64,000 bases of DNA from Streptomyces sp. NBC_01264 (lineage in GTDB: Bacteria; Actinomycetota; Actinomycetes; Streptomycetales; Streptomycetaceae). Below are positions 29,394 to 42,275 of the stretch, piece by piece. Under the pieces are notes generated by a model, which was given only the letters and a program-made list of their open reading frames with translations, was not told the DNA's origin and did no database searches. The DNA is taken from positions 558,001 through 622,000 of the forward strand of contig NZ_JAPEOX010000002.1 in assembly GCF_026340675.1 (NCBI RefSeq). Direction: 5' to 3'. The position numbers and the translations under genes are program-made. Position 1 is the first letter of the stretch, and every line of letters begins with the position of its first letter.

Positions 29394-32300
29394 TCAGGAG
29401 TAGGCCTCGACCTCCCACAGCGAGTAGCCGTACCCCGTCGCCCGCTGGGTGCCGGTCACCCGCAGGTGGCGGCCGCTGCCGTTCAGTCCGGTCAGTTCGT
29501 CCGTACCGCCGTCGCTCGTGGTGGTGGAGTACAGGTCCCGCCAGGTGGTGCCGTCGTCCGACAACTGCACCTTGTACGCCCTGCCGTGGGCGACCTCCCA
29601 GTTCAGGACCACCCGGTTCACGTTCTTCACGGCCCCGAGGTCGATCTGGATCCACTGCGGGTCGGCGAAGGCCGAGGACCAGCGGCTGGTGGCGCTGCCG
29701 TCGGTGGCGGCCGTCGCCGGGTAGTCCGCCGATTGGACCGAGGAGGCCGTGGTCGGCTTGTTCAGGGCCAGGTTGGACGAGGTCTGGGCCCCGAGGTCGT
29801 CGACGGTGAGGTCGTCGAGGACCAGGTCCCGGTCGGCATGGGAGGTCTCCGCCGTGAGCTTGCGCATGCCGATCCAGGCGTCCACCCCGGCCGTGAACGT
29901 CTTGGTGAAGGTGTTCGTGGTCCGGGCCTGCGGCAGCGTGTCGGAGGAGACCTGGGCCGTGCCGGCGCCCAGGGTGAAGGCGTAGTCCCCGGCCACGGAC
30001 TGCTGGTACGTGAAGGTCACCCGGTACTGGTGGCCGGGCTCGAGGCGCAGGGCCTGCGGGATGGTCTGGTAGAGCAGCCCGGGCCGTTCCTCGTGGGATT
30101 TCAGGGAGTTGCCGCCGGCGATCACGTCGTCGATCAGCTTGCCGTTCCACCCCGCCTGTGTGTACGGGGCGTTCAGCTGGGCCAGGTGCGTGCGGGGGTC
30201 TGCCGTACTGCCGCCCGCCGGGCCGACGACGAAGGGGTGCCAGCCGGAGTCGACGTTCTCGAAGTCCTCCGCGAAGGTGTGGCCGCCCTGCGGGCTGCGG
30301 GCCGTGCGCACGACGCGCACGTCGTCGAAGCCGGCCGTTCCCGCCGCCGCGTCGGCGCGCAGGGCCAGGGTGGCCGTGGACTGGCCCGCCGGGACGTCGA
30401 ACAGCACCCGCATCCGCTGCATGGTGCTGCCGTTCTTCTCGTCCGCCCCGACGTTGTTCCGGTACGGGGAACTCGTGGCGTACGCGCTCTGCTCGGCGCC
30501 GCCCGCCGGGGTCACGGCCAGGGTGGCCCGGCGTCCGGTGGCGGTGGAGACGTACACGCTCGCCGCGTAGGTGCCCGGGTTCAGGCCCGTGAGCTGCTGC
30601 GAGACGGAGGTGGCGCCCTGTCCGACGGTCAGCTGCGACTGGCCCACCGCGTTGCGGGTGACGGACGCGGAACCGCTGACCGTCCACTTCGACAGGTCTC
30701 CGGAGGTGAAGCCGGGGTCCCGGACCGGGCCGCCCTCGCCGAATCCGGCGTCCGCCTGGGCGGGCGCGGCCGACGGGTAGACGACGTACGGGGTCTTCGC
30801 GGTGGCGGTGACGGTGACCTTTCCCGCGGTCACCGGGAGGTCGGAGACCAGGACCCGGCCCTGGTCGGTGAGCTTGTACAGCTTGGCCGTGCCGTTCTGG
30901 GCCCAGGAGGCGGGCACGTTCCAGGTGGAGGTGCCGCCCGATCCGCTCCAGTGGTAGAGCTTCGACTCCCCGCTCTGGTTCCAGGGCAGCAGGTAGCTGT
31001 CGCCGATCAGGACGGGGTGGCCGTCCTTGCTGATGGTGCGGGTGCTTCCGCTCAGGGTGGCGCTGACCCCGCCGTCGAAGTCGATGCGGTTCGCCGCCCA
31101 CTTGCGGATGGTGAAGCCCTGGAGGTACTTGGTGGGCAGGTTCGTGGTGAAGGTGGTGGCGATGAAGTCGGCGAAGTCCTTCGTACCCTGCCAGCCCTCG
31201 TAGGCGGTCAGGTGCCGCCGCCGAGGAGCGGGTCTGCGGCGATCCAGTCGTCGCGCTGCTGGTTGCGGATGAAGCGCGCCACCTGGGAGTTGACCCCCTT
31301 GTAGTCGCTGCCCCCGTAGTTGAGGTCGTTGGCCCAGTGGGACCAGAGGGACTGGTCCTCGAACTTGTCGGGGAACTCGGTGGTGAGCTGGTAGCCGAGG
31401 CCGTTGATCTCGCGGGCCAGCGCCTGGGAGGTGTAGCCGTCTCCGTACCAGGTGTCCACGTAGAGGAACTTGAGGTCGGGGGTCACCGCCTTGAGCTGTT
31501 GCAGTCGGGCCAGGCGCTTGCCGCTGGTCCCGTCCAGGCGGTAGTTCAGGTGGTAGGACTGGTCGAGGTAGTCCCAGCCCTTGTCCGCGCCACCGTTGTT
31601 GAGGAGCGCCGGGTCGAAGGTGCGGGCGACCGGGTAGGCCTCGGTGTCGTTGATGTGCACGCCGATGTCGGCGTTGTAGCCGGCGCCGGCCGCGATGAGC
31701 GTGTTCAGGTCGGCGGCGCCGCCCTGCCGGGTGCCGACCAGGCCGTAGTCCGGGTGGGCCGAGTCGTGGCCCTCCGAGCCGTACCCCTTGAGCAGGACGA
31801 ACTGGCCGAGCCCGTCCGTGGCCCGGGCCACGCGCTTGGTCTCGTCCAGGGTCTGGAGGAAGGGGTGCGTGGCCTGGGAGGCGAAGTTGTACGGGATGCG
31901 CTGAACGACCCGGCGGGCGGTGTCCTGCCAGCCCTCGGGGCTCGTCATGATCGAGCGGAACGCGATGGCCCCGTCCTGCCAGTCGACGGTGGAATCGGCG
32001 TTGCGGTCGCCGGTCACCACCACCTTGGCGTACGGCAGCGGTTCGGTGCCCGGTGCTCCGGCGGCCCGGTGCAGCCAGTCGCCGCTCCACAGACCGGCCC
32101 GCCGGTAGCCGGACTTGGCCACCGTCTGCTTCTGGATCCGGCCGCTGTCGGCCGCGTTCTGGCCGGACGGGCTGTCGTAGTACGAGTTGGTGGCGATCGA
32201 CGCCGCGAGGGAACCGGTGTTGAGGATCGCGTACATGGCGCCCTGCGGGGCGGCGTCCGCCGTCGTACCGGAGGTGAGCGCGGTGAAGGTGTCCCCGGTG

Positions 32301-32791
32301 CCGGTGGTGCTGGTGTTCATGCGGGTGGTCTCGACGGCGGCGCCCGTCTGGGAGCTGCGCACCGAGACCAGGTTGTGCTGCGGGATCGAGAGCGAGGTCA
32401 CGGGTACGGCGCTGTCGGCGATCGAGGTGACGGCGAAGGTGAGGGCGCTGCCGCTGACGGACAGGGTGGCCTTGACCGTGTCCCCGTTGGCGAAGGCCAT
32501 CGTGTAGTCGACGTGGTCGGCGGCGACGCTGCTGGTCACGGTCGGGGTCTGCGCGGAGCCGTTGAGGTTGACCTGGGTGAGGGTGTCCTCGTTGCCGTGG
32601 AGGACGGCGCCGGTGGCCTGGTCGGTGTACTGGACGACCCGGGGGAAGGCGGTGTCGACCTGGACCGCGAGGGCGGGTGAGGCGATGGTGACGGTCCCGG
32701 CGGCGGTGGCCGGCGCGGCGCCGGCCACCAGCGTGGTGCCGAGGCCCAGGACTGCGGCGCAGAGCAGGGACGTGGGGCGGAGCGGTCTCAT
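29394..32791 (-). pseudogene. GH101 endo-alpha-N-acetylgalactosaminidase, single frameshift
   Basis: From ATG 32791 the reading has a signal peptide (MRPLRPTSLLCAAVLGLGTTLVAG), the GH101 beta-sandwich and TIM barrel, with probable nucleophile Asp446 (YVDTWYGDG) and acid/base Glu472 (TTEFPDKF). The frame stops at 31208 just after DPLLGGGT; sense continues without loss from LTAYEGWQGTKDFADF in another frame to 29394. That part holds carbohydrate-binding-like beta domains and a C-terminal F5/8 type C (CBM32) domain (NLALNKPTTASS ... WEVEAYS). One base is missing near 31212-31222 in GGCGGCGGC-ACC; restoring it gives about 1,132 residues. Expected activity: release of Gal-GalNAc from mucin-type O-glycans. 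Confidence 0.85.
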
Positions 32792-37524: not shown

Positions 37525-39249
37525 ATGACCTTGTTTCATCTTCCGCAACCTCCTTCCGACGAAGAGCTCTACTGGTACTTCGGCCCGCAACGACGCTGGG
37601 TCCTGATCAGCACGAGCCTCGCCTTCGTCTTCACCGCGGCGACCATGTTCACCTTCGCGCTGCGCACTCCGGCCCTGTGGGCCTTCCTCGCCGTGCTCGG
37701 GCTCAACCTCGTCGCCCTCGTCCTGTCCTCGGTGAACAGCCTGCGCCAGCGCAGGCTGACCCGGCCCTCGCACGAGGTGCTCGTCCGCGCCTGGCAGCCC
37801 GCCCGACTGCCCGGCGTGGACCTCTACTTGCCGACCTGCGGCGAGCCGCTCCCCGTCCTGGACAACGCCTACCGCGCGGTCTCGGCCGTCGACTGGCCCG
37901 GGGCGCTGACCACTTGGGTCCTCGACGACGCCGACCGTCCCGAAGTCGCCTCGCTGGCGGCCTCGTACGGGTACGAATACGTCGTACGGCCCGACCGGGG
38001 GTACCTGAAGAAGGCCGGCAACCTCAATCACGCACTGACCCTGAGCGGCGCCGAGTTCATCGCCATCCTCGACGCCGACTTCGCGCCCCGGCCGGACTTC
38101 CTGCGCCACCTCGTGCCCTATCTGGCCGACCCGGCGGTCGGGATCGTCCAGAGCCCGCAGTGCTTCGACACCGACGGGTCCATGGGGTGGATCCAGCGGG
38201 CCGCGGGCTCCGCCCAGGAGTGGTTCTTCCGCTGGATCCAGCCGTCCCGGGACGCGAGCGACGCCGCCATCTGCTGCGGCAGCAACGCCGTCTACCGGCG
38301 CGCCGCCATCGACCTGGCCGGCGGCTTCGCCCGCCTCGACCACAGCGAGGACCTGTACACCGGCCTCGCCCTGCACGCCCAGGGGTTCCGCACCCTGTAC
38401 GTGCCGGTTCTGGTCGCCAAGGGCACCTCCCCCGACGAGGTCACCTCCTTCGTCAACCAGCAGTACCGGTGGGCGATGGGCAACCTCCACCTCCTCACCA
38501 CGCCCGTCTTGCGGGGCATGGGCGCGCCCTGGCGGATGCGGCTGTGCTTCTACGAGGGCGTCGTCGGCTACCTGGCCGCCGCCGTCAACACCTTCGCGGC
38601 GCCGCTGCCGCCCCTGGTGATGATGTTCTGGTACCCGGACGACATCCGGCCCTGGCACGTCCTGCCGCTGCTCGCCCCGCTCTGGCTCTGGCACGTGCTG
38701 CTCCCGCGGATCAGCAGGACCCGCTGGCGGGTGGAGGTGATCCGGGCGAACGTCCTGACGAGCGTCGCGGCCGCCACCGCCTTCCTGCACACGCTGCGCG
38801 GCCGCAGCGCCGACTGGGTGCCCACCGGCACCAGGGGCCCGGCCCGTTCCGGCGGGATGGCCCGCCGGGTGGTGGGCGTCTCGCTGCTCTGGCTGGTCCT
38901 GTCCAACGGCGCCGCCGCCGCGGGTCTGGCGCTGGCCGTGGCCCGCAACGGCTGGGAGCCCAACTGGGGGCTGCTTCTCTACTTCCTGGTGCAGTGCCAG
39001 ATCAACGGGCCGCTGGTCCGGGACCTGTTCACCGAGCTTCGGCCGGCGGCGCTCGCCGGGAAGCCCGCCACGGCCGCCACTCCGGCCGGCGGCCGTCGCC
39101 CCGGTCTCGGACGGGCCCCCGCCAGCCGCTCCCGCACGGGCGTCCTGCCGCGCCGCTGGCCCGAGACCCTCGCCGCCTCGGCGGTGCTCCTGCTCACCGG
39201 CCTGCTGGCATCCGGGTGGGTCAACCCCATGCTTCCCTGGCTGAGTTGA
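37525..39249 (+). CDS. Membrane GT2 polysaccharide synthase (cellulose-synthase-like)
   Basis: 574 residues from ATG 37525 (GTG 37513 would add four). Two membrane segments precede a GT-A domain with the processive GT2 motifs: D-D-A-D at 134-137, Asp183-Ala-Asp185, Glu275-Asp276 (HSEDLYTG), and Gln312-x-x-Arg315-Trp316 (QQYRW). Several membrane segments follow. No PilZ domain was seen, so c-di-GMP control as in BcsA is not indicated. It should polymerise a beta-glycan from a UDP- or GDP-sugar and extrude it. The acyltransferase-SGNH-GH16 gene begins 17 bases after its stop. No GlxA-type copper oxidase is adjacent, unlike the known cslA locus. Confidence 0.9.
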   Translation: MTLFHLPQPPSDEELYWYFGPQRRWVLISTSLAFVFTAATMFTFALRTPALWAFLAVLGLNLVALVLSSVNSLRQRRLTRPSHEVLVRAWQPARLPGVDLYLPTCGEPLPVLDNAYRAVSAVDWPGALTTWVLDDADRPEVASLAASYGYEYVVRPDRGYLKKAGNLNHALTLSGAEFIAILDADFAPRPDFLRHLVPYLADPAVGIVQSPQCFDTDGSMGWIQRAAGSAQEWFFRWIQPSRDASDAAICCGSNAVYRRAAIDLAGGFARLDHSEDLYTGLALHAQGFRTLYVPVLVAKGTSPDEVTSFVNQQYRWAMGNLHLLTTPVLRGMGAPWRMRLCFYEGVVGYLAAAVNTFAAPLPPLVMMFWYPDDIRPWHVLPLLAPLWLWHVLLPRISRTRWRVEVIRANVLTSVAAATAFLHTLRGRSADWVPTGTRGPARSGGMARRVVGVSLLWLVLSNGAAAAGLALAVARNGWEPNWGLLLYFLVQCQINGPLVRDLFTELRPAALAGKPATAATPAGGRRPGLGRAPASRSRTGVLPRRWPETLAASAVLLLTGLLASGWVNPMLPWLS

Positions 39250-39266
39250 AAGGCTTCACGACCACC

Positions 39267-42200
39267 ATGCACTCCCCCGTCCCCGTCCCCTCTCCCCCGG
39301 CCTCCCCCGCACCACCTCCCGAACCGCCCGCCCCGGCCCGCTCCGGCGGGGAGTCCGGGCCCAGCCCGCACCGCTCCGCCTTCCGGCCCGACATCGAGGG
39401 GCTGCGCGCCGTCGCCGTCCTCGCGGTCCTCGCCTTCCACGCCGGGGTTCCGGGGCTCGCGGGCGGATTCGTCGGCGTGGACGTCTTCTTCGTCGTGTCC
39501 GGCTACCTCATCACCGGCCTGCTCGTCCGCGAGGCGATCACCACCGGCCGGATCCGGCTCCTGGACTTCTTCTCCCGGCGGGCCCGCCGGCTCCTGCCCT
39601 CCGCGGCCGTCGTGCTCGGTACGGTGGCGCTGGCCGGGGCCTGGCTGACCGTACCGCTGCGCCGCGCCGACCTGGAGCACGACGTGGTCGCGGCGGCGCT
39701 CTCCGTCGCCAACTGGCGGTTCGTCGCCCAGCGGACCGACTACCTCGCCGCCGGGCACGAGCAGAGCCCGCTGCTGCACTTCTGGTCCCTCGCCGTCGAG
39801 GAGCAGTTCTACCTCGTCTGGGCGCCGCTGCTCGCCCTGATCGTGCTCGGCGCGGCCCGGGCCGTACGCCGGGGCCGCGCCGTGCGCGCCGCCGTGGCGC
39901 TGGCCGCCGTACCGCTGGTGCTCGCGTCGTTCGCGCTGTCCCTTCGCTGGACGGACCACTCCGCCTCCCTCGCGTACCTCGCCACGCCCTCGCGGGTCTG
40001 GCAGTTCGGGGTCGGGGCGCTGGTGGCCCTGCTGCCCTGGCACCTGATGCGCGGGCCGCGCCCGCTGCGGCTGCTCTGCGGCTGGGCCGGGGGCGCGGCG
40101 ATCGTCTGGAGCGCCGTCGCGTACGACGCGGCCACGCCCTATCCCGGCTACGCGGCCCTGGTGCCGACCCTCGGGGCGGCCGCCGTGATCCTCGCCGCGA
40201 TACCCGGCCGGGGCGAGCGCAGCTCGCCGGGCGGCTACGGGATCGGCCTGCTCCTCGCGGGGCGGGCTCCCCGGGCGGTGGGTCGGCTCTCCTACACCCT
40301 GTACCTGTGGCACTGGCCGGTGCTCGTCCTCGCCGAGGCCCGCTTCGGGCCCCAGGACTGGCCGGTGAAGGCGGCGCTCACGCTGGCCGCCGCACTGCCC
40401 GCCTACGCCACCATGCGCTGGGTCGAGCAGCCGCTGCGCCGCAGCCGTACCGTCTCCGAACTCCCGCGCCGGGGGCTGTCGGTGGGCGTCACGGCGGTGG
40501 TCCTGCCGGTGGTCCTCGCGCTCGTGGTGGGGACCACCACGCTGAACCTGCTGGGTCCCGCCACGCCCGTCCAGCTGAGCGGCCTGCCCCCGGGCGCCGT
40601 CTCCGGCCCGAACCTGCTCGCCCGTACGGGTTCCGCACCGCTGGGGCCGGGCCCCGTGGTGCCCGGCCCCGCCCAGGCCCGGGCGGACTTCCCGCCGGAC
40701 GGGGCCTGCGAGGTGGCGCCGGCCGTGACCCGCAGCCCGGACTGCCTGTTCGGGGCGGTGGACAGCCCGGACCGGATCGTGCTGCTCGGCGATTCGCACG
40801 CGGGCCAGTGGTTCTCCGCGATGCTCGCCGTGGCCGCTCAACGCGGCTGGTCGCTGCAGGAGTTGGTGAAGCAGGGCTGCCCCCTGCCGCAGCTCGCGGT
40901 GGACAGCCCCCAGCTCGGCCGCGCCTACCGGGAGTGCGACACCTGGCGCGCCGACACCCTGGACCGGCTGCGGCGGCAGCCGAAGCCGCGGCTCATCGTG
41001 ATCTCCTCACTCAACCGCTACACCGCCGATTCCGAACTCCTCTCCCAAGCCTGGGAGAAGACCCTCGAACCCCTGCGGGCGATCGGTGCGCCGATCGTCT
41101 ACATCGAGGACACGCCCGTACCGGGTACGGACGTCCCCGCGTGCGTGTCCGGCAGCCCCGGGGATCCCGCCGCCTGCGCGTTCAGCCGTACGGACTCCCG
41201 GCAGCCCGATCCGCTGGCCCGGCGGATCGCCTCCGGCGCCCTGCCCGGCGTACGCGCCGTGAGCGTGAACCCGGTGCTGTGCCCGGGCGACGGGCCGACC
41301 TGCCCGGCCGTGCTGGACCGCATCATGCTCTACCGGGACGACGCCCACCTGACCAACGTGGCGGTCGTCGTCCTGACCCCGCGGCTCGAGCGGCTGCTCA
41401 CGGACTCCGGGGCGCTGCCCGCCGTGGGCGCATCCGCCACCTCACCCGGGGAGGCCCGGCCTGCGGGGTGGGCCGAGCTGTTCCGGGACGAGTTCGACGG
41501 TCCCGCCGGCAGCCCGCCGTCCTCCACGAACTGGCTGCACGACACGGGCACGTGCTATCCGGGATGCCCCGCGGCCCAGTGGGGCACGGGTGAGATCGAG
41601 ACGATGACCGACTCGACCGACAACGTGCGTCTCGACGGCAAGGGCGCGCTGGAGATCGTCCCCACCCGTACGGACGGCGCGTGGAAGTCGGGCCGCATCG
41701 AGACCCGGCGCTCTGACTTCGCTCCCCCGGCCGGCGGGACCCTGCGGATCGAGGCCTCGATCGCGCTGCCCGAGGTGACCGGCGCGAAGGCCGCGGGCTA
41801 CTGGCCGGCGTTCTGGACCCTCGGGGCGCCGCTGCGCGACGGGTACACGGGCTGGCCGGGCGTCGGGGAGCTCGACATCATGGAATCGGTCAACGGCCGG
41901 GACAGCGTCTTCGCGACCATGCACTGCGGAACCCTCGAAGGCGGCCCCTGCCGGGAGCCGGCGGGCCTGAGCTCGGGCCCGCGGCCGTGCGGGGACTGCC
42001 GTACGGGCTTCCACGCGTACGCCGTCGAGGTCGATCTCTCCCCGGGCGCCGAGGAGGTGCGCTGGTACCTGGACGGCCGCGTGCACCACCGGGTGGCCGC
42101 CTCCGGGATGGACCCGGACACCTGGAAGCGGGCGGTGGACCACGGCCTCTTCCTGATCCTCAACGTGGCCGTCGGCGGCAGCCTCCCCCTGGCCGACGGC

Positions 42201-42275
42201 GCGACCCCGGGCCCGGCCACCGAACCGGGCCACCCGATGCGGGTCGACCGGGTGACGGTGTCCACGCGGGGGTGA
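39267..42275 (+). CDS. Acyltransferase-3 / SGNH / GH16 three-domain fusion
   Basis: 1,002 residues from ATG 39267 (GAAAGG upstream). After a Pro-rich N-terminus, residues ~37-400 are an OafA-type membrane acyltransferase (FRPDIEGLRAVAVLAVLAFHAGVPG, FFVVSGYLIT, FWSLAVEEQFYLVW, YTLYLWHWPVLV). A C-terminal membrane segment (~412-432) precedes an SGNH domain (~490-715) with GDSHAGQWF (Asp509-Ser510-His511) and DDAHLTN (Asp692, His694). Residues ~735-1000 are a GH16 glucanase-like domain with the catalytic E-L-D-I-M-E (Glu868, Asp870, Glu873). Predicted topology places SGNH and GH16 outside the membrane. Inference: acylates and trims the polymer made by the preceding synthase. Confidence 0.9.
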   Translation: MHSPVPVPSPPASPAPPPEPPAPARSGGESGPSPHRSAFRPDIEGLRAVAVLAVLAFHAGVPGLAGGFVGVDVFFVVSGYLITGLLVREAITTGRIRLLDFFSRRARRLLPSAAVVLGTVALAGAWLTVPLRRADLEHDVVAAALSVANWRFVAQRTDYLAAGHEQSPLLHFWSLAVEEQFYLVWAPLLALIVLGAARAVRRGRAVRAAVALAAVPLVLASFALSLRWTDHSASLAYLATPSRVWQFGVGALVALLPWHLMRGPRPLRLLCGWAGGAAIVWSAVAYDAATPYPGYAALVPTLGAAAVILAAIPGRGERSSPGGYGIGLLLAGRAPRAVGRLSYTLYLWHWPVLVLAEARFGPQDWPVKAALTLAAALPAYATMRWVEQPLRRSRTVSELPRRGLSVGVTAVVLPVVLALVVGTTTLNLLGPATPVQLSGLPPGAVSGPNLLARTGSAPLGPGPVVPGPAQARADFPPDGACEVAPAVTRSPDCLFGAVDSPDRIVLLGDSHAGQWFSAMLAVAAQRGWSLQELVKQGCPLPQLAVDSPQLGRAYRECDTWRADTLDRLRRQPKPRLIVISSLNRYTADSELLSQAWEKTLEPLRAIGAPIVYIEDTPVPGTDVPACVSGSPGDPAACAFSRTDSRQPDPLARRIASGALPGVRAVSVNPVLCPGDGPTCPAVLDRIMLYRDDAHLTNVAVVVLTPRLERLLTDSGALPAVGASATSPGEARPAGWAELFRDEFDGPAGSPPSSTNWLHDTGTCYPGCPAAQWGTGEIETMTDSTDNVRLDGKGALEIVPTRTDGAWKSGRIETRRSDFAPPAGGTLRIEASIALPEVTGAKAAGYWPAFWTLGAPLRDGYTGWPGVGELDIMESVNGRDSVFATMHCGTLEGGPCREPAGLSSGPRPCGDCRTGFHAYAVEVDLSPGAEEVRWYLDGRVHHRVAASGMDPDTWKRAVDHGLFLILNVAVGGSLPLADGATPGPATEPGHPMRVDRVTVSTRG

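Follow-up and report, generated by a model that had tools for sequence, protein, structure and literature searches.

A conserved Streptomyces gene pair of a processive polysaccharide synthase and an acyltransferase-SGNH-GH16 fusion protein

In this study, a stretch of 64,000 nucleotides from Streptomyces sp. NBC_01264 (contig NZ_JAPEOX010000002.1, positions 558,001 to 622,000; hereafter the window) was analysed with respect to two co-directional plus-strand genes, both of which have open reading frames. The first (37525..39249) encodes P0001, a processive polysaccharide synthase of glycosyltransferase family 2 (GT2) with 574 residues and without a PilZ domain. The second (39267..42275) follows after a spacer of 17 bases (39250..39266) and encodes P0002, a protein of 1,002 residues that joins an AT3 membrane acyltransferase domain, an SGNH domain, and a glycoside hydrolase family 16 (GH16) domain in one chain. 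Length and spacing agree with the initial annotation of this DNA, and the three domains it had assigned were recovered as PF01757, PF19040, and a GH16 match to the Protein Data Bank (PDB) entry 3dgt. This joining of three domains is no artefact and is conserved among relatives. We consider it fairly probable that the two genes form a minimal synthase-dependent exopolysaccharide cassette, in which a membrane-held glucanase is fused to an acylation module. This reading is supported by co-occurrence and adjacency of the genes in 13 of 13 genomes, by conserved active sites, by purifying selection, and by tree topology.

Conservation and spread of the pair

A database search with P0002 scored 7,994 candidates and gave 3,675 proteins at E ≤ 0.001. 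The best 120 of these 3,675 relatives all carry PF01757 and PF19040, are 970-1092 residues long, cover at least 96% of P0002, and are 71-94% identical to it; public records name the relatives generically, for instance as "acyltransferase family protein", and include homologues under S. venezuelae and S. griseus. The pair was also sought in an even draw of 121 Streptomyces genomes (genus sample) and in a draw of 394 Actinomycetes genomes (class draw). Both draws score the best few candidates per genome (up to 11 or 21 in the genus, up to 3 or 6 in the class), and the counts are lower bounds. A GT2 orthologue with 85-100% identity was present in 13 of the 121 congeners and the fused GH16 domain (76-100%) in the same 13. 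All 13 carriers have the order GT2, AT3, SGNH, GH16, always adjacent, and a reading frame around the fused GH16 that is open for at least 998 residues.

The initial annotation had allowed that the parts might always be separate genes in related genomes and be joined here by a sequencing error that removed a stop codon. Separate genes do exist at two loci of other actinomycetes (L043 and L125, described below), yet the split three-gene form was found nowhere else. A sequencing or assembly artefact is ruled out for all practical purposes by the full length of 120 of the 120 best relatives and by the 13 open, adjacent pairs of the genus sample.

Named records place the fused protein in Streptomyces, Kitasatospora, and one Streptacidiphilus, the latter with a broken frame (L046, out of frame in places). 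The class draw contained fused copies in five genomes, all Streptomyces, together with one damaged locus (L201), and no fusion outside Streptomyces was seen in its 394 genomes. In L201 (G476), SGNH and GH16 matches of 79% and 76%, respectively, remain, but AT3 and GT2 are both without a match in 16.8 kb; judged by this remnant, L201 is an eroded copy of the fused gene. Damage was also seen in L040, whose GH16 match has a gap, and in L033, where the GT2 frame is broken. A further nine GH16 genes that lie in long open frames (L202-L210; five of the class draw, four of the genus draw) have no AT3 or SGNH match nearby; the remaining unfused GH16 matches were judged by open-frame length alone.

Seven reading frames flanking the pair in the window were sought at 28 relative loci, among them L043 and L125; at 26 of these loci, none of the seven was present within the sequence examined. 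Thus, the pair alone is the conserved unit. A scan for sigma-70 promoters found 0 with 0.0 expected and is uninformative. Selection was assessed in 28 sequences (up to 378 pairs; near pairs being those with the three nearest relatives); the set includes L033, with a GT2 truncated at 430 residues, and L040, with an incomplete GH16. The median dN/dS for near and all pairs, respectively, was 0.20 and 0.28 for AT3, 0.22 and 0.34 for SGNH, 0.17 and 0.29 for GH16, and 0.20 and 0.24 for GT2, and the region of the presumed transmembrane helix 11 (TM11) yielded 0.38 over all pairs. Higher values were obtained for the SGNH-GH16 linker that forms the fusion joint (residues 713-732; 41403..41462, plus strand; 0.85 near, 0.54 all) and for the N-terminal tail (0.71 near, 0.77 all). 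All domains are under purifying selection, which is relaxed only at the linker and the tail.

Active sites and the gating motif

The processive GT2 motifs named in the initial annotation are all present in P0001. D134 D135 (37924..37929), DAD 183-185 (38071..38079), ED 275-276 (38347..38352) as part of SED 274-276, and QQYRW 312-316 (38458..38472), all on the plus strand, are invariant in an alignment of 24 sequences, five of them distant relatives, 38-53% identity. We take ED 275-276 to be the catalytic base, by family knowledge. P0001 thus has the D,D,D,QxxRW signature of the beta-glucan synthases BcsA, CrdS, BgsA, and CslA. Its top score among the Pfam GT2 models was PF13632 with 73.8 bits; the nearest NCBIfam model, CelA, gave 168.5 bits, far under the family cut-off of 699.1, so that P0001 does not belong to BcsA proper. 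An AlphaFold2 model (mean predicted local distance difference test score, pLDDT, 79.7) had its best PDB matches in BcsA (Foldseek E 8.8e-23). At the C-terminus, residues 509-543 have a pLDDT under 50 and are followed by helices at 545-563 and 566-573. A C-terminal PilZ domain was not among the Pfam or NCBIfam matches of P0001, nor was PilZ among those of P0002, as the initial annotation had held.

At the gating-loop position, P0001 carries WVPTG (431-435; 38815..38829, plus strand) in place of FxVTxK, as seen by comparison within the GT2 tree set. FxVTxK is fully conserved in BcsA, CrdS, and BgsA (PMC6821405) and has been reported for CslA (PMC11022532). The 75 P0001-type GT2s of the tree set, which include a few without a detected partner gene, contain WxxTG in 69 cases and FxVTxK in none; FxVTxK is found in three of four outgroup GT2s, namely the cslA-like synthase of the same genome and those of S. 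meliloti and R. leguminosarum. Judged by its gating motif, P0001 lies outside the BcsA, CrdS, BgsA, and CslA families. Because the motif differs, the product is not readable from the named GT2 families, and an attempt to derive the polymer in this way failed. The fourth outgroup sequence, L177, a "cellulose synthase" from Leptolyngbya boryana plasmid pLBA, has WVPTG as in P0001. It is also the highest-scoring plasmid match of P0001 (35.3% identity over 76% of the query, 259 bits, versus about 165 bits for rhizobial plasmid matches).

In P0002, the AT3 domain (residues 42-377; 39390..40397) scored 102.2 bits with PF01757 (cut-off 31) and the SGNH domain (489-708; 40731..41390) 108.3 bits with PF19040 (cut-off 27), both on the plus strand. 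Conservation of the active sites was assessed in 51 full-length proteins, P0002 and 50 chosen among the best 120 of the 3,675 relatives. P0002 has the AT3 features of the OafA type, R-x10-H, GG-F/Y-xGV-D, RxxR, and a Glu after TM10, which are reported as conserved or essential in OafA (PMC7448272). R47, H58, GGFVGVD, RxxR, and E387 are identical in 51 of 51 proteins except for V69 (V in 49, I in 2); E387 would be the Glu after TM10. The SGNH domain has the motifs GDSH (508-511) and DDAH (691-694). Its G508, D509, S510, H511, D691, and H694 are identical throughout, as is G537, and N583 is N in 49 of the 51. No polysaccharide deacetylase family was found among the Pfam matches of P0002. In the topology model of OafA-type proteins an eleventh transmembrane helix brings the SGNH domain outside (PMC7448272, PMC9558356). 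A strongly hydrophobic segment in Kyte-Doolittle windows (401-433; 40467..40565, plus strand) fits this helix and presumably places both SGNH and GH16 outside. No convincing further helix follows; one borderline hydrophobic run, 961-979, is located inside the GH16 domain.

The GH16 domain spans residues of about 733-1000 (41463..42266, plus strand). Residues 730-999 match 3dgt, an endo-1,3-beta-glucanase from Streptomyces sioyaensis, with E 2e-95, and on the low-confidence P0002 model Foldseek yielded a target-normalised TM-score (TMt) of 0.85 at 55% identity. The domain is homologous to solved members with a beta-jelly-roll. The catalytic motif ELDIME (868-873, with E868, D870, and E873; 41868..41885, plus strand), which conforms to the ExDxxE of GH16 endo-1,3-beta-glucanases and is shared with 3dgt, is identical in 51 of 51 proteins. 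The AT3, SGNH, and GH16 active sites thus all look intact. In contrast to the fused domain, 3dgt was crystallised without an acyltransferase chain (280 residues) and is presumably secreted. With PF00722, the general GH16 model, P0002 gave no reported match, and a PF00722 search of the same genome did not find the GH16 part either. A stand-alone GH16 homologue, L195, also stays under the PF00722 cut-off (20.2 versus 22), and the model therefore appears weak for this branch. The sole Pfam model reporting the GH16 part was PF03935 (SKN1/KRE6), at 18.8 bits and thus under its cut-off of 30. Weak PF03935 matches were obtained in P0002, L043, L081, L125, and L134, with only L081 over the cut-off (32.3 versus 30), and PF03935 is a precomputed domain of two of the best 120 of the 3,675 relatives (P0064 and P0071). 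The GH16 branch points to a beta-1,3 or mixed-linkage beta-glucan as the polymer.

Rather than cut, the GH16 domain might act mainly as a transglycosylase, an activity known from members of this retaining family, and link the newly made glucan to itself or to further glycans of the wall. The PF03935 matches, weak as they are, belong to a fungal glucan-assembly family, and a membrane-held position would suit such a role. On the other hand, the nearest solved relatives are endo-1,3-beta-glucanases, and the sequence does not tell the two reactions apart; we regard a mainly transglycosylating role as rather unlikely. A degradative enzyme feeding on external fungal or plant beta-glucan is very improbable. 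In its favour, the nearest homologues without a synthase link are Streptomyces GH16s with, by eye, signal-peptide-like N-termini. However, 13 of 20 fetched stand-alone GH16s have at least 147 further in-frame residues after the GH16 domain, whereas the fused domain has none; of two such extensions tested, L178 contains CBM6 and L195 no further Pfam domain. Moreover, the fused domain is tethered next to a synthase, and 6 of the 13 genomes with the fused gene own a second, separate GH16 relative (E ≤ 1e-30).

Origin of the fusion and the wider synthase family

In Nonomuraea antri (L043) and in L125 (G264, from another family in the class), GT2, AT3-SGNH, and GH16 are three consecutive genes in the same order as in the pair. 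The AT3-SGNH genes of both carry PF01757 and PF19040, and the frames of AT3-SGNH and GH16 in L043 share four bases. The separate GH16s start with a lipoprotein-type signal, read by eye as LALAGC and LLLAGC. A GT2 tree of 79 rows (quick method) united L043, L125, and 28 loci of the fused type in one clade of 30 rows with an SH-aLRT value of 99. This tree omits L037 (same species as L036), L081 (same locus as L135), the short versions L002-L031, and the weak GT2s L173 and L174 of the same genome; L169 and L171 gave no match at its threshold, and L045 is without GT2 at a contig end. A GH16 tree of 52 rows was calculated by a careful method, with 20 stand-alone rows chosen among unfused genus-draw matches in addition to L001 and with L037, L040, and L046 omitted. 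In this tree, the 26 fused domains form one clade (100/98) that is joined to L043 and L125 at 99/97. The next branches are L197, which is long and weakly placed, and then stand-alone Streptomyces GH16s.

Since the fused GH16s form one clade that is sister to L043 and L125, the operon is probably older than a single fusion, and the three-gene form looks ancestral. The simplest history suggested by the trees is that of a lipoprotein glucanase encoded beside the synthase and later fused once to the acyltransferase. As the tree roots are not inferred, the direction of change rests on parsimony. The patchy spread in 13 of 121 congeners then argues for loss or transfer.

The wider family was assessed with 25 non-orthologous synthase relatives of the class draw, which are 36-52% identical to P0001. 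A GH16 or GH26 match (at least 60 bits, within 6 kb, either strand) is present at 21 of the 25, and an AT3-SGNH match at 9. The latter number bears on the possibility that the AT3-SGNH part acts on another surface glycan, such as peptidoglycan or teichoic acid, with GH16 as an unrelated passenger. AT3-SGNH proteins such as OatA do acylate peptidoglycan (PMC9558356), and the SucT model NF058601 matched P0002 at 224.4 bits, though far under its cut-off of 1275, so that P0002 is not a SucT member. Against this stand the pairing with a synthase in 13 of 13 genomes and the AT3-SGNH genes beside 9 of 25 related synthases, which make action on another glycan improbable.

In the genus sample, GH26 lies directly downstream of 18 of 19 non-orthologous GT2s (all but L122), and 18 of these 18 are over the PF02156 cut-off. 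In a control limited to the genus, PF02156 matches numbered 1-4 in 98 of 121 congeners and 0 in the other 23; with only 0-4 matches per genome, chance adjacency of GH26 is negligible there. A second Streptomyces cassette was observed in L112, L113, L124, and others, in which a GH26, mostly with a lipobox, stands after a GT2 of 38-41% identity to P0001; in L112 a PMT-like membrane protein lies between the two. In Galbitalea (L047) and Kineosporia (L048), a GH6 gene on the opposite strand adjoins GT2 and AT3-SGNH. L126 (G204) has a predicted lipoprotein GH26 after GT2 and AT3-SGNH, at the place where L043 and L125 have GH16. Another locus, L138 (G201), combines GT2, AT3 with two SGNH matches, GH16, and GH26 in about 8 kb. 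By a simple lipobox rule, which misses variants, 25 of 37 GH26 neighbours but 0 of 2 GH6 neighbours are lipoproteins. A tethered glycosidase beside the synthase is therefore common but not universal, and joining it to the acyltransferase in one chain achieves the tethering by other means.

Proposed function and known systems

In the proposed cassette, P0001 would polymerise a nucleotide sugar, most likely UDP-glucose, and thread the chain through its own membrane channel, as expected from its family. By analogy with OafA-type proteins, the AT3 domain would bring an acyl group, either acetyl or succinyl, through the membrane, and the SGNH domain would attach it to the chain as it emerges. Kept at this same site of the membrane through the fusion, the GH16 domain may then cut or re-join the chain at beta-1,3-type linkages, a role modelled on BcsZ, CslZ, and PgaB. 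The polymer is probably a beta-glucan. Its export, its acylation, the order of steps, and physical contact of the two proteins are inferred, and the gene order of synthase, acylator, and glycosidase fits the extrusion, acylation, and processing proposed in the initial annotation. That acylation and cutting act on the same chain is suggested by the fusion, which serves as Rosetta-stone evidence. The fused protein would have arisen once, from a three-gene operon with a membrane-anchored lipoprotein GH16, and have become patchy in the Streptomycetaceae via loss or transfer.

Several observations weigh against this cassette. The pair is present in only 13 of 121 congeners, and P0001 is without the FxVTxK of the established families. 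The AlphaFold2 model of P0002 is poor (mean pLDDT 57.4), too poor for domain placement. Four of the 25 class relatives have no 60-bit glycosidase match within 6 kb, namely L137 (GH26 by Pfam only), L136 (a weak match), L139 (cut by the contig), and L140 (none). The glycosidase partner differs between lineages (GH16, GH26, GH6). The synthase-linked GH16s of L134, L135, and L138 lie outside the L043, L125, and fused clades in both the GT2 and the GH16 tree, suggesting that GH16 joined such synthases more than once and that the kind of partner is not tied to a single clade; by eye, L135 has a lipobox, L134 and L138 do not. Finally, a UDP-glucose dehydrogenase match lies near 11 of the 19 non-orthologous GT2 loci of the genus sample, a hint that some members of the wider family may use glucuronate.

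The initial annotation had named the pair the best candidate in the window for an undescribed system. This is too strong, because PgaB, PelA, BcsZ, CslZ, CcsZ, and Wss are known as kindred arrangements, of which the pair is a variant. A third, GH16 domain on AT3-SGNH proteins, which was new to the initial annotation, was indeed not reported in any paper found in the open PubMed Central literature. BcsZ and CcsZ are cognate hydrolases of their synthases. In Streptomyces, a cognate glucanase is established for the cellulose synthase CslA-GlxA-CslZ (PMC11022532), so that a GT2 synthase with its own glucanase is common to both systems. The pair differs in having neither GlxA nor PilZ, in its GH16-type hydrolase fused to an acyltransferase, and in WVPTG versus the FVVTPK of the cslA-like GT2 of the same genome (L172, named by a nearby PF09118 gene), to which P0001 is distant (98.6 bits). 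The initial annotation saw no GlxA homologue beside the pair, and no GlxA-type gene (PF09118) lies in the window; the four matches of the genome are all on contig C1, one of them 2.2 kb from L172, while the window is on C2.

PgaB and PelA likewise unite polymer-modifying and polymer-cutting domains in a single chain beside a synthase (PMC5933820, PMC12022489), and polymer produced in situ is attacked by the hydrolase of PgaB only if an active deacetylase domain is present (PMC5933820). They are periplasmic Gram-negative proteins of other families that remove acetyl groups, whereas P0002 would add acyl groups and spans a Gram-positive membrane; the likeness is functional only. Wss resembles the pair in SGNH-type acetyltransfer (WssI) onto a GT2-made beta-glucan, but its acetylation is spread over WssFGHI and a glycosidase fusion is absent from the available description (PMC10302187). 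OafA, OafB, and OatA share the AT3 and SGNH architecture and catalytic motifs (PMC7448272, PMC9558356); the main texts of these two papers mention no GH16 domain, and "glycoside hydrolase" occurs 0 times in them. The rhizobial mixed-linkage glucan synthase BgsA is likewise a GT2 beta-glucan synthase without a classical PilZ domain (PMC10374906, PMC6821405). The rhizobial relatives L175 and L176 have FxVTxK, unlike P0001; L176 bears the annotation "Curdlan synthase" and has upstream of it a gene annotated "hemolysin D", and both relatives are presumably of the BgsA type. By analogy, the pair would be functionally like PgaB/PelA or CslA-CslZ and a member of none of them.

Elsewhere in the window, a GH101 (endo-alpha-N-acetylgalactosaminidase) gene was observed on the minus strand (29394-32791). 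Its frame stops near 31208, and protein-like sequence seems, by eye, to go on downstream in another frame, so that the gene may be interrupted.

Gram-positive synthase-dependent exopolysaccharide systems are less studied than Gram-negative ones. The natural fusion in P0002 is good evidence for coupled acylation and cutting of one polymer, and the pair offers a two-gene, genetically accessible system for probing this coupling. Tentatively, the pair may belong, as a single branch, to a large family of Gram-positive exopolysaccharide machines in Actinomycetes that seems not to have been described. Each member would combine a WxxTG-type GT2 with a glycosidase of its own, often tethered to the membrane; lineages would have swapped this enzyme (GH16, GH26, GH6) to suit the polymer, and AT3-SGNH may be present or absent. 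With the parts fused in the Streptomycetaceae, the acylation pattern could directly set the cut sites, mirroring deacetylation-gated PgaB. Within such a family, the exchanged glycosidase partners could help to predict the polymer of each unassigned GT2 synthase.

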